Positions 9,501 through 63,943 of a stretch of DNA of 64,000 nt are shown piece after piece. Origin of the DNA: Paramacrobiotus metropolitanus (lineage: Eukaryota > Tardigrada > Eutardigrada > Parachela > Macrobiotidae); contig NW_026570231.1 in NCBI RefSeq assembly GCF_019649055.1, forward strand, positions 372,001 through 436,000. Reading direction: 5' to 3'. Made by a program: the position numbers and the translations under genes. Position 1 is the stretch's first letter; each line of letters starts with the position of its first letter. Under the pieces are notes generated by a model. It saw only the letters and a program-made list of their open reading frames with translations, did no database searches and had not been told where the DNA came from.

Positions 9501-12500
9501 TCGGCACTCCACATCAGTCGTCGGTGGCGACGGCGGCTTCGGACAGTACGTATCAAAACTAATAGTTTCCGGTTGATAACTGTTTTCACTATCCGACTGG
9601 CCGAATGATTTTTTAAACACCACGTTGATTTTTTCCGAATTGATTTGTCTGGACAGGACGGTGATGCTAACCGAGTGTCGATTAGGAGGATTATCATCCG
9701 TACGGCATTCACTTGGACACGGATAAGATGTTCGTTGCGGCGTGTGCTGCTGTGGCGAAGTGTCAGGATACGATACCTCAATAACACTCAAATGTGCGGG
9801 ACTCCCCACCGGTGCCGCACGGGGATTACTGTCCACTCGAGTGAATTTACTTTTTCGAAATTTGCTTTCGATACGGTCAAGATATTCATCGACGATGGCT
9901 AGCTGCCGCTCAAGCGACGACATCTGTAAAATATACTAGCGACATTATATTATGGAAATGGAGATATAAAAAATGTACGGATTATCTCAAGGCACCACTT
10001 GCGCGTTCGTTGAGGGGGAGGATAAAATGCTAATTTCGGCTAAATACCTGTGTAGCATTATTCAGCATCTCTTCAGCGTTATTCAATATCTGCTCCTTAG
10101 TGTGGGCCAGCTTTCTATCGAGATTTTTCAATCTTCCATCCACTGACAAGCGATTGTTGGCTAATTCATTAGACGACAGGACAATGACGGATGCTGAACA
10201 TGTCGTTTCACCCAATGGATTTGTGGCCAAACAGCGGATATTGCAGGAGCTGAGCAGGCGACTTCCGTCAATAAGCAGCAACCATTCTTCGTTGCCAATA
10301 TGCTCTGTGAATGAAATTAAGCTGTTGGTGATCGAATTCGATTTACGTGAAACAAAACCGCAGAAGACTTGCGCTTTACGCCTGTTTTATTACAACATAG
10401 CATTTATGAATGACCTATCTCAAAACCAGAATCCATAGGGGATATTTTTCGGCCATCCACGAAAAATGTTAGGATAGGAACCGGATGTCCACGCACGCGA
10501 CAACTCAGTTCGGCGTCGTCTCCACGGATAATCTCCAATGGTTCGAGGCAGAAAACGAATTCAGGAGATCTGGGATGCAGACGAGATTCTAAATTGACAA
10601 AACCAAGGAACTTTTATTTCGACTAAACGATAATTAATGTAATACTACTTGGTACATACATATTTAACCTTTTATAAGCAACCTCACGATAACTGATTAT
10701 GTATTAATATTCGACCTGATAACTATGTCTAGCAAGGTGCAATTAAGCTTGTGCGGACATTTGTATGTATAGATCTATCATACATTGTGCAACACAAGCA
10801 GATAGTAAAACAATACCGGTATGTAGTACATTTACATTACACTGCCGCAAAATGCTATGGAGTCTTAGAAACAAAAGCATATAAACAAAACATAAGAATT
10901 CTTTCACAACATAAACCCACATCCAAAAGATTTACTGTTACAAATGCCACTTTCGACAAAACAGCGGTTTGACGCAATGAAATCGATGTCAATAGCTTGC
11001 ATAAAATTTTAACAGGGTTTGCCAGGGTGTTACAAGATTACAATTAGTTCATTAGCTTCGCTTTCTACGATCCATTTTTTACGTTACTGTGAATGGTTGA
11101 GCGCGATTTTACAGCGCCTCTTTGTTTAAAATGATAAACCTCAGCCTCTTGCGTTTACAAGCATAAAACTTCCAGTCTCGTTGAATTAGATTATAAGAGT
11201 AACCCAACAGATACTGTGATACATTAGCTGATCCGTCCTGCATGCAGGACGGCATTTCTTCTAGACTTGCGCAAGTCTAGAAGAAATGCTAGGCATTTAA
11301 TTAATGTAAGCGTATGCCAAACTTAACAATAGAATATTTACTATACCGGCGCTGATTATTATCAGTTATTTCTTTTAAAAATTTGCTTTAAGCTCGTTTT
11401 TCCCCGTGTGCGAGTTCTAAATGCAAATGTAAACGCACACGTTTATAATTTCTCTGCATATTTATAATTATATGCAGAGTAGTGTATGTTTTATTCTTTG
11501 CAGCAAGTACAGGCAATCTTAAACCTACAATTAAAAAAACTTTTAATTTTTCTTTTATCATTTGTTTTACCACACTGTAAGATGGTCCAAGGTTGGTTTA
11601 AATATTTTGATCAACCAAACGGTTTTAGTATTTAATCGATTTTATTTGCCTTTTCATTATTTTTAAATGAACGCGACCAGGATTATACCCGATGTCCATT
11701 CAGTTCTGCATGTTGCGATGATGTTGGGTTACGCTACATATATGCATTTGTTTATCTCTAACACAGACGTCATTTTAACATACCTCGCACCCGTAGCTGG
11801 GCTCTACTTTCCGTAACCACATCTTCGGTGTAGGCAACACAGCGGACGGTAGCTGAATCAGCGAACGAGGTGAAGTAAATTTCCAGAGTGTGCTTGGTTC
11901 CCTGTCGGTATGTCCGATAGCGACCGGTATTGTCCACACTTTTTTTCCCATGAAACCAGGATACTGCTAAGGCACTTCGTCCCATCAATTGACAACTGAA
12001 GCGAGCCACTTTCCCAACACCAACCGTACAGTCGGTCAGTTCCATAAGAAAGGCAAGCTCATGGAGGGCCATGTTTTCGGAATGACAAATCAGGCTTGAC
12101 TCGGAAGATACTATGGAACATCCATCAGAGAGATCCGACATTGCGTCCATATCCCTACAGAATAATCCCTTACATTATTTTACGAAACAATACTTTTGAA
12201 AAATCCTAAACAAAAAACTCGATGCCAGTAACTGTAATAATAAGTACTCGTACTGATGCTCATGCTATTCACCTTACACTTTATTTTTCTTTCATTTGCT
12301 ATGTTTATTAACGAAACAAAAGAAAAATTTTAGTACTCTGTAGAAGCCGTCTAATATTTTTCTCCTTTCTTTTAATTTTTCCCGTTTTATATTAATTTTA
12401 ATTCCACATACTGTAAAGCTATCGCAGGAAGAAATTAGAAGTACTGACTCAGGTAATCACGCTGATATTACGGTATGCTTTCCCTTCAAGTTGCATGTGA

Positions 12501-22249: not shown

Positions 22250-22643
22250 CCTGGGATGCTGACCTGGGATGCTACATGTGTGTGCACAGTAGCCTTGTCG
22301 CACATCGTGGCAACATCGAAACAAGCGGGAGCAGCCGCGGCGCGCGCAGAGCAGGATAAAGTGGCGAAGTATCGTGACATCACACAGGACTACATGTTCC
22401 GTGCAGTAGGCGTCGAAACACTCGGACCTTTGGGACCAGACGCTTCTCGCATGGTCACCGAACTCGGACAGATGATACGCGCAGAAACGGGCGAGATACG
22501 GGCGATTGAGTATCTGCGCCAGAGGTTCAGCATTGAAATTCAACGCGGGAATGCGGCCTCCGTCATGGGAACAGCACCAGCATCGGCTAATTTAGATGAG
22601 ATGTTCAGTATAATCAGACCGTCTATCTCTGTTGTCGGTTGAG
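22250..22643 (+). mobile_element. 5'-truncated retroelement ORF end with nuclease-like domain
   Basis: An open frame reads LTWDATCVCTVALSHIV, then RAVGVETLGPLGPDASR, then EYLRQRFSIEIQRGNA, then a stop at 22641-22643. The same family has three other fragments in this window. I recall this segment as the C-terminal part of reverse-transcriptase polyproteins common in invertebrate genomes. The longer copies show KRPDG followed by LxWDxT, reminiscent of a PD-(D/E)xK nuclease; that reading is inference. The copy begins abruptly after a 13-bp tandem duplication of TGACCTGGGATGC, so it is 5'-truncated and cannot be autonomous. Confidence 0.75.
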
Positions 22644-25141: not shown

Positions 25142-27660
25142 TCATTTCGCTTCGTGGACAGTTGCAGTACGTTCATCAGACACCTTCCAGGTAGACGATT
25201 CAGGCAATTGAACGCTACCCCATCCAGTCTCGCCATTCAGTTCTCCATACGAGCGCAAATGACTTGTTGCTCGTGAAAAAGCTGCCCCGGCACCCTTTTT
25301 AAATGTTGGATTGGCTGCTTCCAAGAATTCGTCCACGCAGGTCATGAAGGGACTGTCAGGATTATCCGTAACATCGCTTCCGGTTAAACTCTGAAGCAAT
25401 GTTAGGCATGCAGCGTAATCCTGCTGGATCAGCATACTAACCAGTACAATACGAAGAGTCAGACATCTTTCTCTGTTAGCTGGTATACGGCCAGTGCAGC
25501 GCATCATGGTGCACAAGTTATGATTCATAGAGATAAGAACGGGTATGTTAAAAACGGAGCTGTGCAGCGCGGTATCTTGAATACGTGCGGTATAGGTGCT
25601 TTGACCATTCAGAGCGTAGATAAGCTCCGGATCGTGATGAGTCACGATACCAGTCGTTTCTACCGCGCATAATGCACAAAAAACCTACATAGGCGTTGGA
25701 AGATACCCGAATGTCTGAATCTGAGCAATAATTTATTTGTTTTTCCCAAAACACCAGCCGAAAAATGAATAAAAAAAATATACATTACCGATTTTGAACT
25801 TTTTCGACGATTGTTTCCCAAATTTTTCTTTTGGATAGTCACACCTTGCACTGCTAGACGGAAATCTACGCCCGAGCCTTTTTCCAAACTGCTTAATAAT
25901 TCTGAAAAAAAAAGTTATTTATAATCTGTCAGTAATCGACCAACCACCGTTGATCGACCAACCACCGTTACAAATACTTCTGCGCTATCAGCGTTAAATT
26001 TACATAGCAATATTCGTATTCGAGATGCTATCACATCCTCCCGGAAAAAAAGGGGCTATAAATTTAAGTAAAACTTGTTCTAATTACGCGACATGGCATT
26101 AGGGGAAGATAGACAGTGTCAGTACCTGGATCTCTCATGCTTCGCTTTATTAGTTCCAAGTTCTTTGCATGCCATTTTAAAACGTCTTCGTTCAGCTTGG
26201 CATAACGATCCGGATTTATAGCCCAGCGACAAGCCGTTCTCGCCTACAACAGTACCTACTATAAGTATGAAACTTTTTTAAGTAGGAAAATTCCTGTTGT
26301 TATGGATTATAATAAAGGTGATGGTGTACGAGACTTATCTGAAAGTCGTCTTAGAATTCTGTAGGCAATATGGCAATAGATGATTACTGGTTCTTCCTGA
26401 AACAGGCAACAATACGACCTCCTCACCTTTGCTGGACCGCTTTCCGTAAAAATTTTTAGAAATCCTGGATTCAAGGACAAATTGTGTCGTACAGAATTCT
26501 GCAAAACAATTTCTCGTGCAGCAATGAAGGGGATATATATATATATATATATAAGTTGTAACTAGACCCATCCAGTTGCAAAATTCTAGATCGTTTATTT
26601 TATAAAGTGAATACAAACCTTCCAGCCAGCCGATGCGGTTCTGAAGTACGGATAATGTTTGCTGCAAAAAGACATTTTCATTAATGCAATATGTAAACAA
26701 GTTTCCCAAAAACTTTGATTTCCAAGAATATGTGAAACGTAAATATATATGCCACATTCCACAGCCACTTACAGAAATTTAAGAATGCGCATGTGATAAG
26801 TATTGTGAGTTGCAAGAAGTAAGAGGCAATTACCACATAAAATTATAGATGTCTCGCACTGTCATCCTTCCGTTTTTACTATTTTTCAACGCAATAGTGA
26901 CCATCGCACTGTACGAATATGGCGGCTTGGGATAATCGCGGTCTTTTTCATCGTCATCCATTGCGTCTAACTCAGGAAATTCCATGTCCATTTCTTCACA
27001 GTCACCATTGTAGTCTTCCTCAGTGATTCTAGTAATTTTAGCAGAAGATATGCTGGTGAAAGGAAGATCACAGTGTCCTTTTTGCAGTTTAACGAACGGC
27101 AGATTCTCTTTCTCTTTAGGCATAGTACGACCTTTCTCGTTGACCAGCAATATTGGACCCGAATGGGTTCCGTGTTTTGGTGGACGACCGCGGCGGGGTG
27201 CGGTTATGTGCAGCGTTCGCGGTATGGTCCGTTCCGTGGGGCCCGGTCCGGACGGATGATCAACCACATTTAACATTTCGGCAGGGCATGGTATGCTCGA
27301 GTATTTGGATTCCGAATGATCAATCTTGGGTTCCGTATAGGGCATGGCGTATTCGTTGACGTTTTCGGCTGGCGACTGAAATACCGGCAGCCCTGACTGC
27401 GTATAGACCATCATGTATTCAGGATAAACAAGTTGGTCGGTATGGGGAAAGGTCGGTATCGTTAACTGGTTGAGCAACGGATACGTGGGAACACCGGTAA
27501 AGTCCCGTTCAACAGGATGATAAACCGGACGAAAATTTGCCATAGTGGACACGAGGGCGGGAAGCATTGTTTCGCCCGTTGGATTCTCCACCATATTGAA
27601 TGACTCTTCCGTTACATCACTTAACTCATACATTTCGCATAATGCCCGCACTTCATCCAT
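25142..27660 (-). CDS. FOXN4: Forkhead transcription factor, FOXN1/4 type, 571 aa, six exons
   Basis: Exons: 27660-26834, 26661-26619, 26498-26427, 26243-26126, 25901-25789, 25684-25142; all GT-AG and in phase. The first ATG is at 27660, just after a splice acceptor, so an upstream UTR exon exists. The forkhead domain (about 243-335) reads YPKPPYSYSAMVTIALKNSK, IYNFMCKHYPYFRTA, WKNSVRHNLSLN. The next exon gives CRWAINPDRYAKLNED and LIKRSMRDP, the FOXN1/4-specific extension. An AT-hook-like core, RRGRPPKHG, lies at residues 156-163. The last 180 residues (VFCALCAVETTGIV to HEAK) are not recognised; in family members this region carries activation function. It is a nuclear DNA-binding regulator; FOXN1/4 proteins act in progenitor and neuronal fate. 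Whether it is nearer FOXN1 or FOXN4 cannot be decided by eye. Confidence 0.9.
25938..25972. repeat. 17-18 bp tandem duplication in a FOXN intron
   Basis: The unit ATCGACCAACCACCGTT is present twice back to back within the intron between exons 4 and 5. Confidence 0.85.
26532..26554. repeat. (AT)n microsatellite
   Basis: About ten AT dinucleotides in the FOXN intron between 26498 and 26619. Probably length-polymorphic. Confidence 0.95.
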
Positions 27661-27884
27661 CGTTGCGTGACTAGAATCGCTACGAATAGAATACCAAGAT
27701 AAAGAAAAACCGATGAGAAAAGTACTGCCCGGGATGATCAAATTAATGCAGTATCCGCACTACAACTCCAGGCGACTCCATCTAAAACAGGATCAAAAAG
27801 CAGTTGTAAGTAACAAAGGCGCTTTCAAACTGCTAAAGCAACATTTTGAAATTATATACCGTATAGTGTTGACCAGTTAGCTCA

Positions 27885-35511: not shown

Positions 35512-37213
35512 ATGTCCACCTTCAGTATCCATCACGTTGGTGGTAAGTGAAGCCACAAAAATGCGTGTGCACGAAACTATGCACCGACACTTATTTGTTT
35601 GTTTGTCATAATTGTACGCACACACACATGTGACTGTTTGTGTGTTTGTCAGATGTGCAAGTTCGAGAGAACTTCATAACCGATCTAAACCAGTCGCGCT
35701 GGGATAACGAATCGCTCGATCCGTATTGTTCGGAATTTGTCGATTTGGCCAAAACATTTGAGAAGCCCGTAGCTGATCTGGGCATTGGCAATGGCTTCAC
35801 AACGAAAAAGTTGCTGGAGACAGGCGCGCATGTGATTGCCAATGATTTGAAACCTGAACGCGTGGATCAACTGTATCGATCGGTGTCGGCACAGGAGCGC
35901 GAAAAGCTGACCTTGAAGCCCGGGGATGCCCTGCAGCTGGTAATAGGCACCGGCTCACTGGATGGCATACTGGCCACCCGGTGGATCAATGTGCTACGGC
36001 CCTACGAGTGCCGGCTATTGATGAATGATTTCTACCGGTGGTTGGCGCCCGGCGGAATTATGTGCATTACGGCACATACTCCCTACTCCAACACCACCAA
36101 AGGTAATTATAAATGTTGCAGTTCCAACAAAATTCTCGTAATTGTTTTGCAGTATTTGCCGTCATGAATAAGCTTATTTTCGGTTACTACTAAACTGGAA
36201 TATTTCTCTCTGTGAGATGCCAGTATAGACGGAAAAATTTCTTCTCCGTTTATCCGATTACCAAAACATTTCTGGTATTTTGAGAAGTTGCTGGTAAAGG
36301 GGTCAGCTGTGGGCCGTGGCGTTCAGTAAAGAAAATTGCAAGCGCCTTGACAGGAATCCGATAAAGTTTTTTGTGCAAAATATAAAGTATGGAAGAATGT
36401 GCTTAGTGCGTGAGCAACTATGAAAAAATTTTATTTACCGCTTAATGTTACTCTGGTCTTTAGTTGTACAATTTTCATCTTCAATTTTCGGAGTTTTGGA
36501 TTTTTGTTGTAACTGATGGTACCTCTAATGGCAAGCGACAGACCGAAGATTTTGCATTACTGTACTCAAGTTTTGTGCTATCTCAGAAGTCAAATACAAC
36601 CGTAGTAATACAACCATGTTGAACATGAGCATTTCTGAATCACTATTTTGATCGAAGCACATTTGCGGCGATTTGCCTAACGGAATTGTTTTAGTCCAAT
36701 TTTGTGTTTGATTTAATAATTGTCTATCACTCAAATGCATAATGCCAAGAAGTTTAATTTGTTCCCGTCACAACACTATTAGCGCACTCCAGCCATCTAA
36801 ACAATATAGTTGGTGGCCGGCTGGCAGCTAATAAGCCATATGACAAGTCCGTTTGTAAACTGACCCCCGGAGGGCTTTTTTCTACATTGTTGAGTACGAC
36901 TGTTTGATTAGTCTATATACGGTGTGTTTTATTCGTTGATCAAACAGAAGCGGTCGACACATACCATCACCGGAAGTACATTGGCGATGAATGGCCGGGA
37001 GTTGTGACAGAGGATATGTTTGTTGATGCACGCCGAGGTCGGCTGTGGGCCAACGACTGGATTTACGGCTACGACCCTGACATTCTGGCCCGTGAAGCCA
37101 TCTTAGCCGGTTTTAAGGTAAAGCGTTGCTCCTTCTATGGGACACCCTACATGAACTCGGAGGAAGATTTGGATGAGGCCTGTAATCTCGTGGGAATCAT
37201 TGCGAAGAAGTAG
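35512..37213 (+). CDS. Class I SAM-dependent methyltransferase, 248 aa, three exons
   Basis: Exons 35512-35542 (MSTFSIHHVG), 35653-36102 and 36948-37213; GT-AG and in phase. Motif I is VADLGIGNGFTTKK and motif II is VIANDLKPER. A core DGILATRWINVL strand and a WLAPGGIMCITAHTPY segment follow, so all the Rossmann-fold SAM-binding landmarks are present. The C-terminal part (GDEWPGVVTEDM, then LAGFKVKRCSFYGTP) completes the sheet. It has no signal peptide and is probably cytosolic. The substrate is unknown. The layout (GA-VIANDL, WLkPGG, -WPG-) reminds me of small methyltransferases common in Legionella-like bacteria more than of well-known animal enzymes. The two introns show it is now a eukaryotic gene. 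The 5' UTR probably begins in an exon upstream of 34180. Confidence 0.8.
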
Positions 37214-44045: not shown

Positions 44046-47000
44046 CTAAGTTTCCGTATCAAAATTGAACAACAACAGCTTTGTCTCTTGAACATCCGCT
44101 ATCGACCGATCGCGACTACCCACGGCACATACCAACGTGCTATGATTAGCTGTGATCCGCCAAACAACACCGCCGATCTCGCGAGTCGGCAGCCGAACAA
44201 TATCGCGGATAAACGAACCCGTCCGGCGATCCCATAACTTGCAGGTACCATCATCCGCCGAGCTAACTACATAGGTCTCATCCAAATACACGCTAGTGAC
44301 ACCACTGCTGTGCCGAGTCTCAACATCTGCAAAAAGTAATGGCAAAATTAGCAGTGTAACTCGCGGTCCAAACATATGAAGAATTCTGTAGAAGTATAGC
44401 ATGAAGTCATCAGAACTACTATAATATCCAGAACTGCATCAATTTTACATTATTGCACATAATACTCACGAAAGTGATGCCTTAAACGCGTCTCCTTGCA
44501 CAGAGTACTACTGCAGTGTAAACCAATAAAACGAATGGTAGATTACCACCACAAAACCGAATTACCACAAAACGTTTACATGACTACTTCTGTTGCGTTA
44601 AAACTGCCATACCAGATCCCATAGTTAGTATGCAAGCTCCCGTCTGAATGTTCCAGACATGGATTTCAGAATCCGGGGTGGCTGTAATCACCACATGTTC
44701 ATCCTGACGGGCTTTACAACTAAGCATCTGATGTCCAACCAGCAAATGCTTCAATGCTCCGGTCTTGACATCCCAGATTCTGTGTACGAAAAATTTACTA
44801 CCTATGAGAAAATTTAAAGTGGTTGTCCTTTCACCTGATCGTATTCCCCAGAGAGCCACTGACAATATGGACGCCGTCGAACTGAAAACAGAAACATTCA
44901 GCACCGAGACAAACAAATTATTAATAAACAGTTACGTTATACTATCATTATACCAGTACAATCCCGCTATTTCGGTGACCTTGCATCGCATCAACATCAC
45001 GTGCCATTAGGTAATGAAACCAGCTCAGCTCAAATGAGCTGCGTTTTGACGAAATCAAACGCTACTCTAGCTGATTTCCTCAGTTATCAATTTATGCTCA
45101 ACAACAAGATGCCACCTCGATTAAGCTATCAATTTCATTAGTATGCGGAGCGTAGAAAATCAGGCATTTAATTCAAGGTCATAATTCAATTTCTTCATTT
45201 AATGCCGCAAACAGGGCTAAAACACCCACGGCTGAAATACTGTATATACACCAAAAGATGCTGTAAAATCGTGAAATATATAGCGCTAATGCTACAGCTT
45301 ACTATACTACCGTAACAAACCTGTAGGGCATATAGTCGTTCCGCGTGCCCAAGTAGTACCATAAGGCAAATAAATTCTTTTGGATGCCAAACACGGACAT
45401 GAGTATCATAAGATCCGCTGACAATATAGATCCCATTATAACGGACACAGCGTATGGCTCGCGTATGTCCCATCAACACTCCTAAGCAGCCGTTCATACG
45501 CTTGTTGCTGGTCCAATCATTGCAGGCATCCAGACCGACATTCCAAACGCGCAATGTACAATCCCGAGATCCACTAACACATCTAAAGATATAACCCGTC
45601 GGACGAGAAAAACAAACTGACAACACAAACGGCACACGGCGAAGCAACATAGTGAACAACAACCTCAGAATTCAAATAACCGATACGTATCTTTAATGAA
45701 ATCAGTTCGCGATTAAAATGCTATGGGGAACTGAATGAGAAAAACGAACGAGCTGAGAGGAAGCAAAAAAAAACAAGCGTATAATACAACGTGCAACATA
45801 CATCCCATCTTTCAGCGCCAAACAGCGGACAGTTTGTGCATGGCCGACCATCACGGTATCCAATTCGCCAGTTTCCAAGTTCCATATCCGAACGGTACGG
45901 TCTACACTGGCACTAACAAGCAGAGATCCTTCGACTTCCATCGCCCAGATACCAGCTTCATGGCCGGGTAAGGTGTACAAACACTGAAATATATCAGAAA
46001 ATCTGAAAAACTGAAACGCGAAAAAAGCTGAACTAAAAATTTAGAGCATAGACACATTACAATACCTGTCCGCGCTGAACGGACCACACTTTAATTATTC
46101 CATCGTCAGAGCCACTAACAATTCTGTTGTCATCTGTCAGTAACAAACAGGTTATCATGTGGCCTTGGTGCGCTGGTAGCTCCTAACAAAATGTTAGTAC
46201 CTCATATTACTATTCAGAAAGATCTCAAAATGTTGCGTAAATTCCGCTAACGTACCTTGACTGGTCGAGTGGAACCGTATCTCCAATTGCGAGATACCAC
46301 AAAATGCCGTGCAAAATTCACTTTCCACAAACTCCTGGTTAATCTACGCACTAAACTATGTTTCAGCAGCGGAAGGTCTGCACGTCGATCCGAGAATCCT
46401 TGCTGCCTGTTTTTATTTCGCCACAAAAGATCACTCTCTCCAAACCGACACCAAGAGAGACACACTTGCGACGCTCGACAAATGTCTTTGGCTTCCAAGT
46501 ACGCAAAGATTCGAAGAGTCAACTACGACAATCCATTGACCAAAAACATATAACGGCAGAATCGGCAGAATTATCACAGCATATTAGTTTATTGTATTAA
46601 ATTTCTGAACAACGAAATAAAAAATTATCATAATTAATTAAGTACAGAAACTGCTTCTATAGGTGACTACTCGTACCATAATTATCGTCACTATACAGTA
46701 CTCGTACCGATTGAATTCTATTATTAGGTAGTATATTGTAAGTACTGCATATTTCAATTTTTCGAAATTTTTGCAGACTTAATTTAGACCAGAGCTTATC
46801 AAAACCAAAACAAGTCAGTAAAAAAATTATTTATTGATGACTTGTTTTGGCTTTTAATTTTTTAATTATTTATATATTTTATAAATTAGCATACATTAGT
46901 TTCTATATTTTAAACGCTTTAGTATTTTGTCAGCAGCATTCATGCACCAAGACCCTCATCACAAACAAAACCAATACGGACGAAACACGAACGCACATAC

Positions 47001-47159: not shown

Positions 47160-48449
47160 TAAAAAACTGCCACTTTCCCCGTCCGTTGGGAGAATCCAAA
47201 TGTTTAGTCGTTTCAGAAACACTCTGCTTAAACAATCTCCTAAAACAAGCACACCACCAGAAGGTCGTGGAATCCCAAGATAGGTCTGGTACTCTCCATT
47301 TTAAAGTAACATTCTAAGGAGGCAGCGCATCGCGGAAGGCAATCTTGGAACATCAACGTTCGCTGTCTTAGTTTCTGGATATCAAGCCGTCCGAAAGGGG
47401 AAACCGCAAAAGCGAAGCTGAGAGAGCCTAAAAAAATGGACAGCAAGACTGCAAGAGATAACTAAAAACCCGAAGACTGAAGAGCAATAAAACTCGTTGC
47501 TGAATAAACGGCGTCTACTTACTGAGATAGTAGCTTACTAGGTAACTAGTGCGATATTTTTATTTGCACAAAGTATGGTAATAATTATTGAACTTGCTTG
47601 CTCAACTCACCCTTTTGCTTGAGAGTGACAAGCCAGAATCCAGAATCCTGCCAGATCCATGAAAACGGAAGCCAACTTCCAAACTGAAGTTTTGAGTTCT
47701 GGACTTGATTCAAGTCATACTGATAGGTAAAACAACAAATAATATAACGCAACAAATAAAACAGGAAAGAACTCGACAGTATGAACTAAATATTCGATTT
47801 CACAAAATATTGCTGACGTTTTACTTGTTTAAAAGTTTAAAATACTAGTACTGGTAGAACTACACTTACTGTAAATTACTTTTTTACTTTGAAAAATACT
47901 TTTACGAGTAAGTTACTGTAAGTAATTTGATCTTTTTCAAATTGAAATATTTCGGGGTTCGGGCACGGGCAAAAATATAATCGATGCGCATTGGCGCATG
48001 CAATAAAACTGTGGGCATTTTGGAAATAAAAATAAATTCGATGCGCACGTATGATTGGCTGATGCTCATGCGACGACCATTCCCAGCTTTGGTACAGCCC
48101 ATAATATGGCATTGCGGATCGTAGATACATTAGAGCACGAGATTTGTCCCAGAATACGCAAGGTCGGCACTCGGCACTCGGTAGTGGTAACTCGCAGTTC
48201 TCCGCACAGAAAATACCTTTGCAGTTTTGATGCAATATTAACCTGATTTTTTTATTCAGCTTGGCTAATTAAGCTAAGTTTAGTTTGTAAGTGAGGTTAA
48301 TATCCATTTTCGCAGTTCTCTTGACATCTTATACTGCTATCGTTTTTCAAAGTAAGACTTTCGAACTTGAAAGCAGCGCCTTCTTGGCGCTTTTCGAAAT
48401 AGATGTGATGCAGATCTTGACGGATATTTTCTCTTTTCAGTAAACCAAA
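47160..48449. other. Intergenic between divergent FBXW7 and SRSF3
   Basis: This is probably a shared promoter region. A CAG acceptor ends at about 48440, just before the SRSF3 ATG, so a 5' UTR exon of SRSF3 lies upstream, perhaps in the GC-richer part near 48060-48240. No other coding sequence is supported. Confidence 0.45.
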
Positions 48450-48986
48450 ATGGCACGATCTGGGAGTAATTTTCGTGGGCCGTGTCCGCTTGATTGCAAA
48501 GTGTATGTAGGTGATCTGGGAACCAATGGAGATCGGCGTGAGCTTGAAGATGCGTTCGGCCGTTACGGACCTCTGCGGAATGTGTGGGTTGCCCGTAATC
48601 CACCGGGTTTTGCCTTCGTCGAATTCGAGGATCCGCGCGATGCCGAAGACGCTTCCCGTGAATTGGATGGGCGAACGCTATGTGGGCGTCGTGTGCGCGT
48701 GGAAATGTCCAGTGGACGCAGCAAGCCGAAGCGTTTTGGAGAAGGTCGCCGCGATGATCGCGATCGTCGTGGCGGTCGGGATCGGGATGATCGTCGAGGA
48801 GGACGAAATGGTCGCGATCGTGATTCGCGCAGCCGCAGTCGGGACCGTGATCATCGACGTCGTTCGCGGAGTCCGCGCGATGCCAAACGTGAACGTTCCC
48901 GTTCGGGATCCCCGCGCAATGATGACAGTCGTCGCCGAGGACGAGCTGGATCGGAGGAGAAGAATGGCGTTAAAAGCGAAGATTAA
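48450..48986 (+). CDS. SRSF3: SR splicing factor, SRSF3 (SRp20) type, 178 aa
   Basis: A single coding exon; the ATG lies a few bases after a cag acceptor, so the 5' UTR is spliced. An RRM covers about residues 14-88 with RNP2 VYVGDL and RNP1 GFAFVEFE. The run [18 protein letters not shown] is nearly identical to vertebrate SRSF3. The C-terminus (90-178) is Arg-rich with RD, RG, RS and SR dipeptides ([15 protein letters not shown]). There is no CCHC zinc knuckle, which argues against SRSF7. It is a nuclear protein that binds exonic enhancers and helps mRNA export through NXF1 (family knowledge). The tail has more RD/RG than RS repeats compared with vertebrates. Confidence 0.93.
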
Positions 48987-51014: not shown

Positions 51015-52100
51015 TCACTTCTCATTGCTCCTTGCCTCCTTAGAAGACTTCTTTGGAGATTTTTTATGGCGCAAGGAATCCTTCTTTGAATGTTCTCTAC
51101 TAGAAGCCGCCGCCAATCGCGCTTTCGTTCGGCTGGTGTCCAACTTCTTTCCCTCAAATTTCACATTGTGCAAGGCCCAATTGGCAATGACCAAGAAGGG
51201 ATATTTATCCGCCTGCTGACGATCCAGGCCGTCCTTTTCCTCCTTCAGCTTATTAGTTTCTTCCCGAAGATTGTTGCGTGACTTGAGAAGTTCCTCGTAG
51301 GAAGGCAGTTTGCGGATACTGCTGGCCATATCGAGATACTCTTTAAATCGTGCCTCCGTCTTATTCGCCTGCTCCAGTTTCTTTTGTTGGTTGGCGATCT
51401 GGTTCTTCACGTCCTCGATGGCCAGCGCCAATTCATCGGGCAAACGAGCATCCGTCTCGGCGTTTCTCCGCACTGATTCAGCACAACAGGTGAGTCTAGT
51501 CAGTGTCAGCTCCTCACAGCGCAAAAACATCTGCACTTTCTCAAACAGCACTTCCAGTTCCCGGCGTGTCTGCTGCTCTCGCACGGCACTGACAAAGGCA
51601 AAAATATTCGCTGTTAATGTTTTGATGCCGCGATGACTGCTGGCAATGGGATTGCCCGCTTCAAACATGAGTTTGCGCCGAATGATTGCGTCGTCCGTGT
51701 TGGAAAGAGAGGTCTTCTTTGGCATGGTAGCAATAGCGAGCGGCGTCCATCGCGCCAACTCAGTATCGCGCACCGGCGGGCCTTTAGATTCTTCTTCTTT
51801 CGTAATGGTCGGGGGTTCTGCGGACGCAATAAGCAAAGGCTTGAGTGTTGCCAGAACAGGTTTACTACTGCTGGAGGAGTCTCGCAGGCTGGGAGATGGA
51901 CGCACTGTTTCGGCAAGAGCAGGGAGAGGATCGACAATTTTCAGCTTGGGAGTATATGGGGCAATGGAGGATGAGGATGATTCTGAAGTATTCGATGGGG
52001 AACCGAGTTTGGGCTTTTTAGAAGGCGACGGGTTGACTATCTCTTGTTCCGAAGCACGTACTGGAGACACAGGCTCAAACAAATCCTTTTTCGATGACAT
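51015..52100 (-). CDS. THOC7: THO complex subunit 7-like protein, 361 aa
   Basis: One uninterrupted reading frame. The ATG at 52100 (MSSKKDLFEPVSPV) is preferred; an upstream in-frame ATG at 52169 would add 23 residues. Residues 1-155 are Ser/Pro-rich and disordered. From about residue 157, TDDAIIRRKLMFEAGN matches the start of THOC7, then helices (LEVLFEKVQMFLRCEE, IEDVKNQIANQQKKLEQ) form a long coiled coil, with RKLPSYEELLKSRNNL and a final LVIANWALHNVKFEG. The tail is basic (KKSPKKSSKEARSNEK). THOC7 pairs with THOC5 in the THO/TREX complex that couples transcription to mRNA export. The long N-terminal extension and lack of introns are unusual; a retrocopy origin is possible. The assignment rests on the helix pattern and the DD-IIRRKL start. 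Confidence 0.75.
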   Translation of the reverse strand: MSSKKDLFEPVSPVRASEQEIVNPSPSKKPKLGSPSNTSESSSSSIAPYTPKLKIVDPLPALAETVRPSPSLRDSSSSSKPVLATLKPLLIASAEPPTITKEEESKGPPVRDTELARWTPLAIATMPKKTSLSNTDDAIIRRKLMFEAGNPIASSHRGIKTLTANIFAFVSAVREQQTRRELEVLFEKVQMFLRCEELTLTRLTCCAESVRRNAETDARLPDELALAIEDVKNQIANQQKKLEQANKTEARFKEYLDMASSIRKLPSYEELLKSRNNLREETNKLKEEKDGLDRQQADKYPFLVIANWALHNVKFEGKKLDTSRTKARLAAASSREHSKKDSLRHKKSPKKSSKEARSNEK

Positions 52101-52289
52101 AGTGTGAGGTGTAGGAGGAGAAGAACTTGTCAAAACCACAAGATTCAAAGATATCCAATCATCGCACATACAGAAAGCAAGTTGCTGCGTTGCAGTACTT
52201 CTATAATAAATTATTTTAATGCTGATAAGTGATAGATGATATTATTACTACTCTGAATCACGGTACGCACACCCGAATGCGGATTGTAT

Positions 52290-52840: not shown

Positions 52841-53027
52841 CTACGGACCATGGGGAGATGGAACTAAATAAAACGCTATAGTGGAGAAAGTTGGAAACGG
52901 CATAGCTACCGCCACAGTTAGCGACCAAGCAACGGGCAAAAGAGTTTTGTAAATTTGTTAAGCAGCGGCTGTCTTAATTACTGTTGTAATACGCATAAAT
53001 ACTGTAGTAATACGCCCTACGCTTAAA

Positions 53028-53555
53028 TACCTGAACGCCATTGTGAAGCGCACCCTCGCATCGGCCGGCTTCGAAAGCGAACTAGAACCACAAGGTATCT
53101 TCCCTACAGACAGCAAGCGCCCAGACGGCGTTACCTTGACACCATGGGAGAGACCGAGAGAGGACGGATGTTGGCATGGGATGCCACTTGGGTCAACACA
53201 ATGGCCATATCGCACATCGTCGCGACATCCGCACGAGCGGGAGCAGCAGCAGCACAGGCAGAGAGCAGGGCAAGATCGAGAAATATCGCGATATCGGCCA
53301 GGACTACCTATTCCGTGCTCTGGGTTTTGAGACGCTCGGACCGCCCGGACCGGAAGCTGTCCGCACAATAACGGAATTCGGACAGAAAATACGACAGGAA
53401 ACCGGCGAAAAACGAGCCACGGAATATCTTCGCCAGCGGATCAGCATATAAATCCAACGAGGAAATGCGGCATCGATCATGGGGACGGCGCCGATGGGAG
53501 CTAATTTAGACCAACTTTTTTCTGTGATTAGGCCGCCTGTGTCGATTGATGCTTA
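53028..53555 (+). mobile_element. 5'-truncated, frameshifted copy of the nuclease-domain retroelement
   Basis: Segments, in order: VKRTLASAGFESELEPQG, SKRPDGVTLTPWER, (frameshift near 53155) GRMLAWDATWVNTMAISHIV, (frameshift near 53270) KIEKYRDIGQDYLFRALGF, ETLGPPGPEAVRTI, EYLRQRISI, an in-frame TAA, then IQRGNAASIMGTAP and VIRPPVSIDA with a stop at 53553-53555. At least two frameshifts and one stop show it is dead. It is the most complete of four family fragments in the window. The KRPDG...WDAT pair resembles a PD-(D/E)xK nuclease core (inference). Confidence 0.75.
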
Positions 53556-55122: not shown

Positions 55123-56277
55123 TTATCGACCTTTGTCCTTCAGAAGCCGAGGAAGACCGATCAGACTGAAAAAGGGAATCGCGTGAATCGGTGAACGGTT
55201 GAATGCGCGAATGCACGTGCTAATGATCGGGAAATTGTTGCGTACTAAGTCAGGTGAAGTTACCTGTTCAACACTTCGGCATTTCGTTTTTCGGTAGACA
55301 GATAATCGCTGTAGTCATTCGAGCTTGCGATCTTCAGGATGTAGGTAGCCAAACTGGCAATTGCCTATAACAATATTTCGAAAAAAACTGAAACGGGACA
55401 GGGCGTATTTGGTAATGGTCATCTTTTGTCGTTACGGTCATCTACAGTTACGCACTGCAAAGATTCTTTAATTTTTGCTACACCTGTAGAGTTCTCCAGT
55501 TTGAGTGCAATCTGGGCTTTGCTGAAGCCAACAAACATATGGAAATTTTCCATCGCAAAAGAAAATTACGACTTCCTTTGATGCTTATAAAATCTTTAAT
55601 TATATACTTATGTTTTCGATTAGAGATCTTTATTCTGAATTACAAGTTTCACTATTTAACCGCTTTGTACTCAACCGAGAACAATTAACTTTCATTGAAA
55701 AGAGATTTCTAATCCAGCTGACGAAATTTATGCATTTGCATTTAATGTTGACACTAACCATTATAAACAACTTCGAACTTACACGAAGTAAGTTTACAAA
55801 ACTCTAACGTTTCTATAATTGTTTCAAACTTTGGCCGGAAATTAATTAATTACACCTTGTTAGTACCTGGGCAATAATCAACACAAGTAACAGAACGATA
55901 GATAACACTAAAAATATTAAAAAGTGAAACAAACCGAAACAGCGACGTTTCGGAACATCAGGTACTATAATACTTCTAACAATATGTACTTATACCGAAA
56001 ATCAGGTGCCCTACAGGCTACAGACAGTTAGTGTGGTGTCTAAATAGAGGTATTTCACTGGCTTGTGAAATGTACAAAATTACTGTACATTCATGTAAAT
56101 ATACAATAATTAGAATAACCAACATAGATACATGAAAAATAATTTCAAAATACGTTAAGCTGATACCTGTCGCTGGCTGGTAGAAAGGTCACCATTTCCA
56201 TCTCCAACAGGCGACGCCGCAATCATTTGGGACGCCAGCACGCAAACAGCAACCAACGCAAAGAAAACAGCCTTCAT
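55123..56277 (-). CDS. PDF: Pigment-dispersing factor (PDF) neuropeptide precursor, 84 aa
   Basis: Coding exons 56277-56167, 55364-55264 and 55165-55123, all GT-AG with matching phases (0, 2). Exon 1 is a signal peptide (MKAVFFALVAVCVLASQ). Exon 2 gives a spacer (AIASLATYILKIASS), then STEKR and NAEVLN. Exon 3 completes SLIGLPRLLKDK-GR and a stop. Cleavage after KR and amidation from the Gly give NAEVLNSLIGLPRLLKDK-amide, 18 residues. That is the length and pattern of arthropod PDF/PDH (N-S/A-E-xx-NSL-x-G-LP-xxx-x-D-x-amide); the NAEV start is like nematode PDF peptides. It should be secreted from neurons and act on the class B receptor PDFR; in insects it synchronises the clock network (family knowledge). 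An intron splits codon 7 of the mature peptide. A TATA box lies upstream. Confidence 0.92.
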
Positions 56278-56529
56278 GGTAATTGTTTTTTGATATTTCA
56301 CCCTGCAAAATGCGCATGTTTATTTCTAACCGGTTATCAAGCAACATGAAAATGAATGACAAAGATCGACATAATCTATTTTGGGAAGATATTAATGCTA
56401 CTGACACGATGAGCGAACAAAGTGATAGGAATCTGCCATTTCAAGCCGGAAGAGCATGGAGATGTAGAAATTAGCCACTTGCCACAGCAGATGGACAGAG
56501 AAATTAAATGGAAAACAAGCATCACTTAC

Positions 56530-56650
56530 CCGTTAAAACTTGTCAGCGATTTCCGGCTTGTACAGGATGGAAGTAATAGTGAGAGTGTAATGTCACTATG
56601 ACTATATCGTGTCTACGTCCCAAGTGAACGCGGTGGCGGTCTTTATATAT
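56530..56650 (-). promoter_or_regulatory. TATA promoter and 5' UTR exon of the PDF gene
   Basis: On minus, TATATAAAG at 56649-56641 is a good TATA box. A transcription start about 30 bases on would give a 5' UTR exon ending at a GTAAGTG donor at 56529. The acceptor TGCAG before 56302 brings the UTR to the ATG at 56277. TATA promoters are typical of tightly regulated secreted-peptide genes. Confidence 0.7.
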
Positions 56651-59532
56651 TAAGTATTGGTCTGGTGCGATAATGGTTGTGATTTCGCTGTATTATGCAT
56701 TAGAAATGTGACTGGGAATTAGCTGATGACGCTGATTTCCGGTGCGTCAGCCAGCCCAATTGTGGCATGGTTAATCTCTGGATGAGCAGGCTGCTGTCAC
56801 TTTATACACTACACTAACTTTCTGTAGGGCTTCCACTTGGCTTTTCTTGATTCAATTCAGTCAGAATACTGAATTTACTAAGGTGGAAAAGTGAAACGCG
56901 TTTGGCGGTTGGCGTTCTCAGGGATAGGCTTGATTTTCAACATAGTTCGCTACCGGCACACTGCAACAGCACTTTCTGGGTTTGCGAATACTTTACAATG
57001 AATGACAGTAAAGAATATTGATTTGCATTTACTGTACTTAGAATTTACTATTTATTTGTAAATAATATGGAAATCATATGGAAATGAAAAACGAATTCGT
57101 AGTAAAATGGATGCCAAGATCATTTAACCGTTTTTTAAATCACAGTCACATTAAACCAGATTTTCTAGGGATAAATCAAACTAGTCCTGTCAAAAACTAA
57201 TGCACTTAATAAGGATGAATCTACTCTATAACTATAATGCTCGCTATCGCCAGCCGCATACCTATCAGTTTCCGGTCAGAGTTTTCACATTTGCATTATT
57301 CTGCCGGTGCCTGAGAACTGACACAACGGTTCGCAAATATCTATGTTACGCAACTAAACCTGACCATTACAAATCAAGTTTTGGTTTTTCATGTCTTACT
57401 AAAAAGTCGCTTCACTTGGCAGTGTTTTTTGCAACGAAAAGACTCTGATCATGAATTCTTAGCCAAAGTACAGATATTTTATGTTATGTATTTCAGTTTT
57501 CTATGGATACCGATGCTGTTGAATTTTGGGTATTATACTGTAATTAAATTTTCATGGCATTGTACACACACAGACAGTCACCGCAAGCGTGTACTAGTAC
57601 TATGCCCACTATATGTTTTTATTATTATTAGAAAATGTGTGACTTGTTAGGAGTTATACTAGCAAAACAATGGGAACTTTTTGGAGTGCAGCTAATATAA
57701 CGAGGGAATGTAGGCCTTTTTAAGTGCTTTCAGCCGTTATTTTACTGGGAATCAGTTATTTTGACGCACAGCATCTTTTAGGGAATGTATAATAAAATAT
57801 TACAGTTCGTGATAGGCAGAATTTTGGAAAAGGGCTTACAGTTCTTTTGTGATTTCGGTCATGCCGTCTCACGTGTTTATTCACAGGGTCAACTGAATCA
57901 TGTTTTCTGATTTACAACAGACCACGCTACACGGTAAAGGGATACCACCATAATGGCTTCGGTTTCTTTGTGTCAGAATCGTATTATTTTACCAAACGAT
58001 ACAATGTCATACTGTGCCCTTTTAGGTGTGGTGGCATCCCACACCATTTTACGCGTGGTAGAGGAGTATTCCTGAGTGTGAGGGTGCCGATCATTGATTT
58101 CCGCCAGGGCAAATACATAATATATAGACACGAAGGACGTTGAAACACTGCTTTAATGTCCGTAACCTAAATATGTTCATGTAGCGAAGCTAATCTTAAA
58201 ATATGAATATAGAAGGTATCTTCGGGTAAACTGTCATGCCATTCGTTTTTAAATAATTTGCATTCAGAATCAAACAGAGCTATTAATTTATTACAGTACT
58301 GAAACAAAAGATGACGAGCGTATATTCGATTACGCATGGCAGTACTAAATAATCTTTTTAGTACCGCCATGGATTACGACATTGCTAGTGCCATAGTTGC
58401 ACAAGGCATCCAAAAAGTAATACTGTATTCAGTGTATTGTACTAATAAATATTGGAGATATACAAGTATGTACTGTATTTGATCGTGAGATCAATATGTA
58501 CCAGCATGCTGAACCTGAACTCTTTGTTGACTAGCTAAACCATGGACATAATTTGCTCATGACCTTTGGTAGTCCCTACGGTTAACAATTCAGGACACGC
58601 GATAGTCAGCTGACGATGTATCCGCTGTCAGTGTTGCTGCATCTTCCGAATCGAGTATTGTTGCATTTATAGGACGTTACCCGTATGGCGCTTGAATGCA
58701 CATGCACAACTGTAAAGTTCCTCCGGAAAAGGAATTAAGAATAATAATTCGCGCTGACACTGATAACCAGAGCTCTGGCATGATGACAGAAAAACTATAG
58801 TCACTTATACTTAGTCCTTTCACAAGCATACATTTCAAAAGTGCGGTTATGCATGTGCATTGTGCAGTTATGCGTTGCATTTTAAAGGTCAGGAAATTCA
58901 TCAAAATTCCATGGCGTAAATAAGTCAACATCATATATACAGTGTACAAGTACTATATCAGTGTTATGCAGATGGATATGAAAACATTTTCATCGATTAT
59001 TACGATTGTCTACATAAATTATTCAAAATGAGGATTGCTGTGATTATCTGATTTAATTGCTCGGGATTCTTGTATCGGTACGATTAATATTAGCGTTCTC
59101 TTGTTGAATAATTATTATGTATTTTCGTTTCTAAATGGGGATATTTCCGAGCATCCCAACAAGCGTTGCAATAGTTGAAGTATGCAAACAATAGAAGAAA
59201 TACGTTCCGTGCTTTCTCTATAATAGAAAATCACTTTGGTATGGAAAGTGTACTGTGTTTCACAGTGTTACTGCTTCGACAGACGTTAAGCATATTTTAG
59301 CAAGCCGCTGTAACGTTTGCCGACTAAAACGGTCCGCAGGCAAAATATATTTTTGGACAAACCTTCAGGGTATACACGACAACAAGCCAGTCATTGTGAA
59401 CTGCACTACCGAACAATTATCCTCGTTTGCCTTGCTATTACGTACTTCTTGGCCAGAAGTCGAGAGAAAAAGGCGCTGATAATACAGTCTCTGCTGCAGA
59501 ATAACACAGCTTAATTAATTCACGCTAGAGAC
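56651..59532. other. 2.9 kb intergenic between divergent PDF and CYB561 genes
   Basis: The upstream regions of both genes lie here. An imperfect hairpin (GGCAGTACTAAA against TTTAGTACCGCC) lies near 58338-58370. No coding sequence is supported. Confidence 0.5.
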
Positions 59533-60932
59533 ATGGGATCGTACACTAGAGTCTCGGAAACCCGTGAAGTCCGGACAACCGGACCCAATGCGGCCGGTCT
59601 ACATGGTTCCGGACATGGATCCGGCCAGCATCGACCGAAGTGGCTGTGGGGATGGGTCGGTGTCTATGTTTTATTAGGCATTCTGGCGCTGGTCTTCATT
59701 GGCCTGTGGATCAGTGCCGATAACGGTGTACAATGGGAAAACCCGGCTGAGCCCCGACTGATGTTCAACTATCATCCGCTGTTCATGATTCTGGGGTTTC
59801 TCTTCATTTCTGGCATGAGTACGTACCGAATAGTTGATACTTATTAAGAAGAATTTATCAGACTGTCAGGAAAGTGATGTAGTAGGCATGTTGTTTAAAT
59901 TTAACGTCTCTTGATTATAGCTAATCTAATCTACCGCATGTTTCCGGATGGCAATGTGACCGCTCTGAAAATAACTCATTCCCTTCTCCAGTTGACCGCC
60001 TTCATTCTGATGTGCTGCGGCGTGGTATGTGTGTTTTGTCGGGCAATAAAATTTGTTTTACACTGTTACCTAAACGATGGAAATAATTCTAATATAATAT
60101 TCTGTGTGGTTTACTTGTAGTATGCAGTCGGATGGTCGAAAGATTATGGACACACCCCCCATGTAGGATCCTCTTGTTGTAATAACAAATTTAAATAAGC
60201 ATGCTGAATTTTTTCTGCTCTCCATTGACGCTGTAGGTGCCCCGACATTTCACATCCGTTCACAGCTGGTGCGGTTTGACTGTCCTGATCATTATGGCAC
60301 TGCAGGTAAAGTTTCCTTGTCCTAAATTCATGATAGTTAACCATTATTTATTTAGGAAAATGCCCATTTATGTGCCATATATTCTCCGTAATAGCGGAAT
60401 TATTTAAAAGTTTCCTTGTTCGTTGTTGCGTATTCTTTTATTTTGCCGAGATTACTTCGTGGAGTCCTAACATCAGTGACATGGATATCGTTAACGATTC
60501 ATCTCTTCATTTCAGTGGGTCTGTGGATTTTTCGGGCTGCTTGTGCCTGGATGCCGCGGTGAACGGTACGTTTAATATTATTAAGCCACCATCAGCCATA
60601 TTTCAGAGAACATGGGTTTCTTTTTTTGAGCTTTTTAAATACTTTTTCTATTTACCAGTCGCCATCAGTACCGCACTACCCACATTTTTACCGGCAACTT
60701 GATCTTCCTGCTGGGAAGCGCGACTGTCTTGATCGGCATTGACTCACTCTCCAAAGCCGACAGCACACTGAACACCTTAGCATTAACCGTGATTGCTTAC
60801 GCCATTCTGGGAGCGTGGTTTCTGTCCACGGGAGCCTTCAAACCAGGCCGTCCTGAACATGTAGATGCCACTACGGAAGAGCGAGCACCACTGACCTCCA
60901 CTGATCGCGCATCTGCTGGATATCTGCCATAA
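59533..60932 (+). CDS. Cytochrome b561 family transmembrane electron carrier A, 274 aa, six exons
   Basis: Exons: 59533-59818, 59921-60024, 60121-60162, 60237-60305, 60516-60565, 60659-60932, all GT-AG and in phase. After a 36-residue soluble start there are six hydrophobic helices, e.g. VYVLLGILALVFIGLWI, LFMILGFLFISGM, LTVLIIMALQWVCGFFGLL. The four haem-binding histidines are all present: H81 (NYHP), H115 (KITHSLL), H153 (SVHSW) and H192 (TTHIFTG). These give two b-type haems, one on each side of the membrane. Family members pass electrons from cytosolic ascorbate to ascorbyl radical or ferric iron in vesicles, lysosomes or at the cell surface. The C-terminal tail is short and acidic. It is the first of a tandem pair; the next gene starts 1.3 kb downstream on the same strand. 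Confidence 0.92.
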
Positions 60933-62247
60933 AAAGATTGATTTATTAAACCGAGGGAATATTTTTGGTATAAGCCTGGTGTATTGGAACATTATATATG
61001 CTGCTTGCTTCGTAGATTGTTTTAGAAAATCAGTGAAGCGGTATAATTTGCTGTAGTATGAACAATTGGCGTTCTTTCTTCGATACGTGCCGTATACCTT
61101 AAAAATAAAACAGCATATCACATGTAACTGGCGCCGTAACCTTTAATTAATGGGATGTGTTGCAGTAATTTATAATTTTTCCATCTTCAAACTAGTACAG
61201 TACATGATGTGGCGTAAATGCACTGCTAAGAGTTCACTGCCAATTATAGTTGTGCACAGAGGATCATAATTACTATTACGAGTACTAATACAAAAAGCAC
61301 AAAAGCAACAGTAAATTAGCGATGGAAAGACAAAATCGAAATTATAGTTAAGAAAAAGCCGCAGAGAACGAGTTCCTATAAGTTTAAAGTAAAGATGTTC
61401 ACAACAACCTTTTTATCGCTAGGTTATTCAATTTTTGTCTTGCGGCACGCAAAGACACATTTAGCAACAAAACATTTTGCTGGAAGCCATTGCCCTTATA
61501 GTCTGGAAAGGAGCACACTAAACAGGGCGTTTGCTGAACTTCTGTACATATAGGAATTACGAAATCTACGACCAGAATTGAAAATATTGCATCTCATATT
61601 TAGTCTTAGCGAATATTACCCTTATAAAATAAAGTCAGATAGGTCGCGCTCTTGATGTTCCAATAGTACAAGTGTACAGTTGCCGCTCAAATACACCACC
61701 ATCATCGCAGCCTTGCTGTAATAATAAACTGTACTTAGTGCAAACATATATATTTTTTCATACACTCAGTATAGCTATCGTCGTACATAATTATTTTTGT
61801 AAGTGCAGTTCTCCGGCTGACGGTTTTTTCATTCGTAGCAAAAGCGTAAACAAATTTCGTTTTAAATAAATCTAATTTCTGCGATTTCCGGGATGAATTT
61901 TTTTTGACTCGCTTGATTTAGAATCTTGGGAATTTATTTTTCAACAACAAAAACTTTTGGGGTTTGCCGTAACATCTAGAGATGAGCTGGCCCCAAGCTC
62001 TTAACGTGCCTCGGAGCAGTTAACAATATTTGCGAAGAAAAACGCCGTTGTCTGCAGCAGTGCCGCAAATCGGTGAAATTCAATGTGTATGTGTCCTAAG
62101 GCCATTGTGAACAAATAAGCCAGTCGAAAAAGAATTCAGCATTCTCGGCTTGCGAGTGTGTGTGTCAGGGCCCAGTTCCATACCGTTTTCCGCTACAGAT
62201 TTCATTAGGGCGACAAGCGCCGCATTGATTTTCCACTTTGCTGTATA
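60933..62247. other. Intergenic between the tandem CYB561 genes
   Basis: No gene is seen. The left arm of an inverted repeat pair lies at 61932-61983. The CYB561-A 3' UTR and CYB561-B promoter should be here. Confidence 0.5.
61932..61983. repeat. Left arm of an inverted repeat pair spanning CYB561-B exons 1-2
   Basis: About 50 bases including CAACAACAAAAACTTTTGGG and GCCGTAACATCTAGAGAT recur as reverse complement at 62857-62908 with only a few mismatches. The two arms bracket exons 1 and 2 of CYB561-B. Confidence 0.85.
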
Positions 62248-63943
62248 ATGGCTCGCTCGCGGTTTTCCCATGAAGAAGTGGTCAGGGAACGGGTGGATGT
62301 CCGTGTCAATGATGAGGGACATGGCACACGTGGACCCGACAGCAGCTTCTATAAACGTCTGGTCTGGTGGTGCGCCACATACATTTTCTTGGCCCTGTTG
62401 GCGCTGATTCTCATTGTGGCCTGGTGTATCCGCTCCAACATGGGATATGCATGGAAGGACTTCGCCCATATGACCGGCTCCATCAACTACCATGGAACAT
62501 TCATGATTGTCGCCTTTGTTACGCTGAACGGCATTGGTACGTGCAAAATATAACGAACTGACCTTTTTTCCAGAGCTGGATGATGTGTGTTATAACATCG
62601 ATACTGTGTGTCTTGCAGCCGATGTGCTGTATCGAATGTGCCGCAATAGCAACAGGTTGTCGGTGAAGATTGCCCACGCTACCATCCAGACATTCGGTTT
62701 CTGCTTCATTGTCACCGCTCTGTGTGCTGTCTTCTGGTGGCACGACGCCAGGAATCGCCCGAATCTCCAGTCCACTCACAGCTGGATTGGTTTGCTGATC
62801 GTCCTGCTGTATGCGTTGCAGGTAAATGGTTACTGATTTCTACTACTGCAACACTATCTCTAGATGTTACGGCGAACCCCAAAACTTTTTGTTGTTGAAA
62901 AATTAATTCCAAAGACTTTTTAATTACTCAAGTTAAAAATTCTTATTTGTCTTCTGAACGTTTTAATAATTTTAGTGGGTTGTCGGCTTCTTCGGCCTTC
63001 TCTTCCCCGGCTTCCGCGCTCCTCTGCGTGCAAGTTACTTGCCTTATCACAAATTTACCGGTCGCAGCATCTTCTTGTTGGCGATGGCCAATACTTTAAT
63101 TGGTCTGAACAAGGTCAGCGCCGGGTCGAGTTTGATTAACTGTTTAGCACTGATCATCATCCTGTACACCATTAATGGCGGCTACCTGTTGGGACGAGAC
63201 GATTACGATATCAACTACGGAGCGCCACCGGGCTACAATGAGGACGAAGTGCGACGCTCATCCGGCGGAAGCCGACACAGTGGCGGACATGTCGTGACCA
63301 GCCCGGACGAAGCTAGTAAGTACTCTAGGTTCCAGAATTAGTTTAAGTTAATTAAATATATACAGACGCGTTGCAAAAAAGGTTGGCTGTTGTTATATAT
63401 TATTTAATGCTGGCGTTAAATCTGCAGGCAATATGTACATCAATATTGCAGGAACGCAAGGCACCGGTCACTATCAGGCCATGGCAGAGGATCCAGCCAT
63501 TAAAGTAAGCACGACTTTTTTAGTACAGTGATACTGGCATCAAACACTACCTGCATAATTGACATAAAAAAGAATTCAAATTTAAACGGAGTGAATACGG
63601 AACACGTAGTATCTTTTGGGTATGCGCGCTGCTGTTCATTGTATCGCATTTTTACGAATAAACTGCACGGAATTCTAAACCAATGCAGCATATGCATAAG
63701 TTACCGTACTGTGACCTTTACTGGCCGAAATTAGAGTAGAAAGATGAAATGCGTTATCTATATAAAACCGTTTCTTTTCTGATCGAGAATTGCTTTTCGG
63801 CTTTTTGTGAAAACGTTTTGCTGTTACAGGAAGCTATGGCTGTAGGCCGGGACACCTTCAGCAAATTCCATGATCGTTTGGAGCGCAAGAAAAATCTTGA
63901 TTTGGATGAAGTTGTACACACCAAAACAGTGGTTACAGAGTAG
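62248..63943 (+). CDS. Cytochrome b561 family protein B with long C-terminal tail, 340 aa, five exons
   Basis: Exons: 62248-62536, 62619-62821, 62976-63315, 63428-63504, 63830-63943, all GT-AG and in phase. Six hydrophobic helices match paralogue A in order and spacing (ATYIFLALLALILIVAWCI, GLLIVLLYALQWVVGFFGLL). The haem histidines are H82 (INYHGT), H116 (KIAHAT), H150 (STHSW) and H189 (YHKFTG), so it should bind two haems and carry electrons across a membrane. Unlike A, it has a tail of about 100 residues after the last helix, Gly/Ser/His-rich (SSGGSRHSGGHVV) then charged and helical (FHDRLERKKNLDLDE). The tail is coded by two extra exons and is probably cytosolic. The shared exon boundary just before WVxGFFGLL supports tandem duplication. 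Confidence 0.92.
62857..62908. repeat. Right arm of the inverted repeat pair, in CYB561-B intron 2
   Basis: Starts ATCTCTAGATGTTACGGC and continues as the reverse complement of 61932-61983. It lies wholly inside the intron between exons 2 and 3. Weaker similarity extends about 15 bases further out. Confidence 0.85.

Follow-up and report, generated by a model that had tools for sequence, protein, structure and literature searches.

In the tardigrade Paramacrobiotus metropolitanus, a three-exon pdf-1 gene encodes a mature peptide identical to He-PDF-1

The window, the whole 64,000-nucleotide stretch of Paramacrobiotus metropolitanus DNA analysed here, carries on its minus strand a PDF neuropeptide gene, pdf-1, which is real and was correctly read. 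Genes of this kind and the peptide itself were known before, and so, going by the published gene count, was its occurrence in this species. The preliminary description had proposed a PDF precursor gene in three small exons; its layout, coordinates and peptide proved exact, and the mature peptide NAEVLNSLIGLPRLLKDK is identical at 18 of 18 positions to He-PDF-1 of Hypsibius exemplaris, as printed in the cited portion of PMC11879619. We are close to certain that the locus is P. metropolitanus pdf-1, the orthologue of He-pdf-1, with an mRNA of three coding exons, a processed amidated peptide and signalling through PDFR and cAMP.

Exon structure and flanking signals of pdf-1

The coding sequence consists of three exons of 111, 101 and 43 nt (minus strand, 56277-56167, 55364-55264 and 55165-55123), giving 255 nt when joined. 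The gene and its candidate upstream signals are arranged as follows, in window coordinates:

56643..56649, minus strand: TATA-like box, candidate core promoter with a putative role; the sole TATA[AT]A[AT] match in 56277-57300
56530..56620, minus strand: predicted non-coding first exon with approximate start; putative GTAAGT donor at 56529-56524 and TTTTGCAG acceptor at 56310-56303
56167..56277, minus strand: coding exon 1, 111 nt; begins with Met and a signal-like leader that covers roughly residues 1-21, then the first part of the spacer; equal in length to the first exons of He-pdf-1 and Rv-pdf-1
55365..56166, minus strand: intron 1, 802 nt, phase 0, GT..AG
55264..55364, minus strand: coding exon 2, 101 nt; end of the spacer, the KR site (55289-55284), the first six residues of the peptide and the opening two bases of the Ser7 codon
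55166..55263, minus strand: intron 2, 98 nt, phase 2, within codon 7 of the mature peptide, GT..AG
55123..55165, minus strand: coding exon 3, 43 nt; completes the Ser7 codon with its final base, followed by LIGLPRLLKDK, the Gly that donates the amide, Arg and stop

A frame break between the exons had been named beforehand as one observation that would speak against the gene, and none occurs in the 255 nt. The joined exons translate into an 84-residue precursor, MKAVFFALVAVCVLASQMIAASPVGDGNGDLSTSQRQAIASLATYILKIASSNDYSDYLSTEKRNAEVLNSLIGLPRLLKDKGR, followed by a stop. It comprises a leader, MKAVFFALVAVCVLASQMIAA, which is signal-like as judged by eye, a spacer, a dibasic KR (residues 63-64), directly after it the mature peptide (residues 65-82), which starts with Asn (NAEVLN), and a terminal GR-stop. 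The coding limits, the KR site and the GR-stop had been given exactly at the outset. Both introns begin with GT (gtatca and gtaact) and end with AG (ttatag and tttcag), the second cutting Ser codon 7 of the mature peptide as AG/T in phase 2, as first described. The prediction that ORF finding would miss the gene also held, since none of the 29 ORFs of at least 60 aa overlapping 50-60 kb is in the pdf-1 frame; a 72-aa ORF does overlap exon 1 but reads a different frame.

Computed products of altered splicing differ from the precursor. Retention of intron 1 yields a 40-residue leader product, retention of intron 2 yields a precursor ending in KRNAEVLNR-stop, and the pdf-1 product thus needs the removal of both introns. 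Skipping of the middle exon breaks the frame.

Upstream of the coding exons, the TATA-like box, the GTAAGT donor and the TTTTGCAG acceptor, all of them consensus matches, suggest a putative non-coding leader exon. Downstream, the first AATAAA lies at 54241, 882 nt past the stop, and nearer polyadenylation-type signals are variants only (AATGAA at 54804, ATTAAA at 54700 and 54469). This lack of AATAAA within 880 nt would fit a decayed or unexpressed copy with the functional gene elsewhere, but the reading frame, the splice sites and the peptide are all intact, which leaves that explanation very improbable. Moreover, in the genome of 169,799,020 bases on 533 contigs, the only DNA match of the 1,221-nt pdf-1 region is itself, and no second PDF-1 copy was found with the gene DNA or the peptide as query, a search that a weak or split copy could escape.

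No direct or inverted repeat of at least 30 nt was found within 50-58.5 kb of the window, and Rfam and tRNA scans of the 64-kb window gave no matches. Two related plus-strand stretches (22250-22642 and 52962-53371), alike over about 300 nt in pairwise alignment and both with SHIVATS in translation, look transposon-derived and degenerate, a guess from appearance; the second lies about 1.8 kb past the pdf-1 stop. The nearest downstream domain match among ten frames scanned is a 408-aa open frame with a THOC7 domain (51015-52241, minus strand, E 7.5e-11). On the other side, 59515-63341 (plus strand) holds exons of maybe two adjacent cytochrome b561-like genes, of which the 62976-63341 frame matches PF03188 (E 3.5e-8) and the 59515 and 62209 frames, without Pfam match, were judged by eye. 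Elsewhere in the window are exons with a partial forkhead domain (26830-27759, minus), a methyltransferase domain (35634-36167, plus), WD40 repeats (45195-45671, minus), an RRM and RS-rich tail (48444-48986, plus) and an I-set domain (11770-12174, minus).

Identity with He-PDF-1

According to the cited portion of PMC11879619, NAEVLNSLIGLPRLLKDK-NH2, KDK end included, is the printed form of He-PDF-1, which was seen in brain extracts by mass spectrometry as the most abundant PDF ion signal and located in eight brain neurons and two ventral extracerebral cells. The synthetic peptide activated He-PDFR-A and He-PDFR-B with EC50 values of 56 nM and 21 nM, respectively, and tardigrade PDFs share 33-44% identity with beta-PDH (PMC11879619). 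The KDK ending of P. metropolitanus PDF-1 therefore belongs to a known tardigrade peptide: the preliminary description was right that it is present, whereas the novelty it implied does not stand, given the H. exemplaris peptide in print (PMC11879619). In a full-text literature search, NAEVLNSLIGLP, IGLPRLLKDK and NSEILNTLIGLP occurred in PMC11879619 only, and EILNTLIGLPA and LIGLPARLKLK were not found.

The Pfam model PF06324 (Pigment_DH) scored 12.3 bits on the precursor (E 0.19), below its gathering cut-off of 20.3, with model positions 1-13 aligned to residues 65-77. The gathering score is a detection threshold rather than a defining feature of PDF, and we take it as too strict for tardigrade PDFs, because the proven He-PDF-1 has identical mature letters. 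The sub-threshold score and the distant AATAAA do not outweigh full identity with a proven peptide.

Splice models and a second query bear on how readily such a peptide could arise. Two-intron models were enumerated from the pdf-1 ATG over 1,500 nt (GT[AG]...[CT]AG, introns of at least 40 nt, middle exon of 15-300 nt); 2,114 three-exon models stay open, and just 2 of these finish with a KR...G(K/R) peptide, which in either case is NAEVLNSLIGLPRLLKDK, the first donor being the sole difference. He-PDF-3 served as a second, independent query, with a single intron of 45-1,000 nt allowed. On the minus strand of the window, the spliced 18-mer that matched it best was PDF-1 (11/18 identities), compared to a best of 5 identities on the plus strand and a maximum of 7 in 100 first-order Markov simulations of the minus strand (He-PDF-3 query only). 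The idea that a PDF-like peptide was put together by eye from unrelated sequence, which the very short exons and the Pfam score under the cut-off might invite, can be given practically no credence against 11 identities versus the simulated best of 7, and the 18/18 match to a proven peptide refutes it for practical purposes.

Predicted processing and action of the peptide

The pdf-1 mRNA would be spliced from the three coding exons, probably downstream of a non-coding leader exon, and the precursor is expected to enter the secretory pathway with removal of its leader. Cleavage after KR, trimming of the C-terminal Arg and conversion of Gly to the amide would then yield NAEVLNSLIGLPRLLKDK-NH2, with a calculated [M+H]+ of about 1992.20; the signal itself, 18 residues followed by G-R-stop, is present, and amidation is predicted from it. 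For enzymes of this kind, the genome contains 8 exon matches to the proprotein-convertase P domain, and 14 exon matches on eight contigs to the Cu2 monooxygenase C domain, not all of which necessarily represent the amidating enzyme. Once released by brain neurons, the amidated peptide may serve as both neuromodulator and hormone and may raise cAMP via the class B receptor PDFR, for which the cited portion of PMC11879619 gives two putative homologues in P. metropolitanus. The presence of the peptide in brain and its action on the receptor are others' data from H. exemplaris; by analogy, the same events would probably take place in P. metropolitanus.

Paralogues and comparison with known PDF genes

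Two further pdf genes are present in the genome (C5:317514-317576 and C16:426812-426874), making three with pdf-1. This equals the published number for P. metropolitanus, and Paramacrobiotus richtersi and Richtersius coronifer also have three each, as given in the cited portion of PMC11879619. The genome further contains five DM domains, two of them on C5 at 2.135 and 2.163 Mb, in agreement with the five DMRT copies of P. metropolitanus described in PMC11191345, of which two lie on scaffold 5 in a region drawn at 1.96-2.37 Mb. The C5 peptide NSEILNTLIGLPAKLRLR and the C16 peptide NSEILNTLIGLPARLKLK are identical to PDF-1 at 10/18 and 12/18 positions, respectively. Like pdf-1, these PDF-2/3-type genes encode KR, an 18-residue peptide of the form N-x-E-x-L-N-x-L-I-G-L-P, and then Gly; unlike pdf-1, they have this Gly immediately before the stop and the mature peptide in a single exon. 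The favoured two-exon models, chosen among 21 (C5) and 20 (C16) models passing a crude leader filter, have first exons of 111 nt and 108 nt, respectively, and a phase-0 intron before the peptide exon. He-pdf-2 and He-pdf-3 likewise have two exons each, yet share a common scaffold (PMC11879619, cited portion), compared to the separate contigs found here.

On the two paralogue peptide exons, PF06324 gave 11.8 bits for one and no match for the other, and its genome-wide profile search missed both genes. The sole genome match of that search, on C118 (E 6.26, under the cut-off), reached at most 4/18 identities when read both ways. The pattern K-(R/S)-N-x-E-x-x-N occurs at five places in the genome, pdf-1 being one of them, versus ten for the reversed pattern, so that matches are expected by chance. 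None of the others (C1, C7, C14 and C58) runs on unspliced into a PDF on either strand; when a single intron no longer than 1,500 nt was permitted in the fetched loci, their best was 7/18 identities, the level of simulated sequence, and the C14 match is out of frame with an apparent exon of another protein. A fourth pdf gene, diverged or split, may exist.

Compared to pdf-1 of P. metropolitanus, He-pdf-1 (KP266565) has the same number of exons (three), 255 nt of coding sequence and 111-nt first exon, whereas its introns are 126 and 193 nt instead of 802 and 98 nt (PMC11879619, cited portion). Its exons of 111, 109 and 35 nt place the second junction 8 nt further 3' (109/35 versus 101/43), in phase 1 rather than phase 2 by exon sums (220 mod 3 = 1; 212 mod 3 = 2). 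These printed lengths imply that the mature peptide is split in He-pdf-1 too, apparently in Gly10 if the same GR-stop tail is assumed. An intron in Ser7 is excluded by the print, since LIGLPRLLKDK, Gly and a stop need at least 40 nt and the printed exon has 35 nt. Rv-pdf-1 of Ramazzottius is printed with two exons only, of 111 and 147 nt (PMC11879619, cited portion), and is therefore without the second intron.

H. exemplaris and Ramazzottius belong to Hypsibioidea and Paramacrobiotus to Macrobiotoidea. Together with this phylogeny, the differing introns suggest one of three histories: loss of the intron in Ramazzottius combined with an 8-nt slide in one lineage, two separate gains, or a misprinted exon boundary. 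That the intron truly slid 8 nt or was gained twice within a 54-nt stretch, with the protein sequence unchanged, we consider a real possibility that falls slightly short of an even chance. The case is a small and easily checked possible instance of intron sliding or repeated gain.

Altogether, pdf-1 bears out that raw sequence can suffice for a correct reading of a small neuropeptide gene with several exons, and an exon map is now available from a second tardigrade superfamily. The unchanged peptide between Macrobiotoidea and Hypsibioidea suggests strong constraint on the KDK-ending form.

Arthropod PDF/PDH peptides have an 18-residue amidated layout and usually end in NDA or TEA. PDF-1 of P. 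metropolitanus has the same layout as these members of PF06324 but, with a score under the Pfam cut-off, replaces the usual arthropod ends by the charged KDK.
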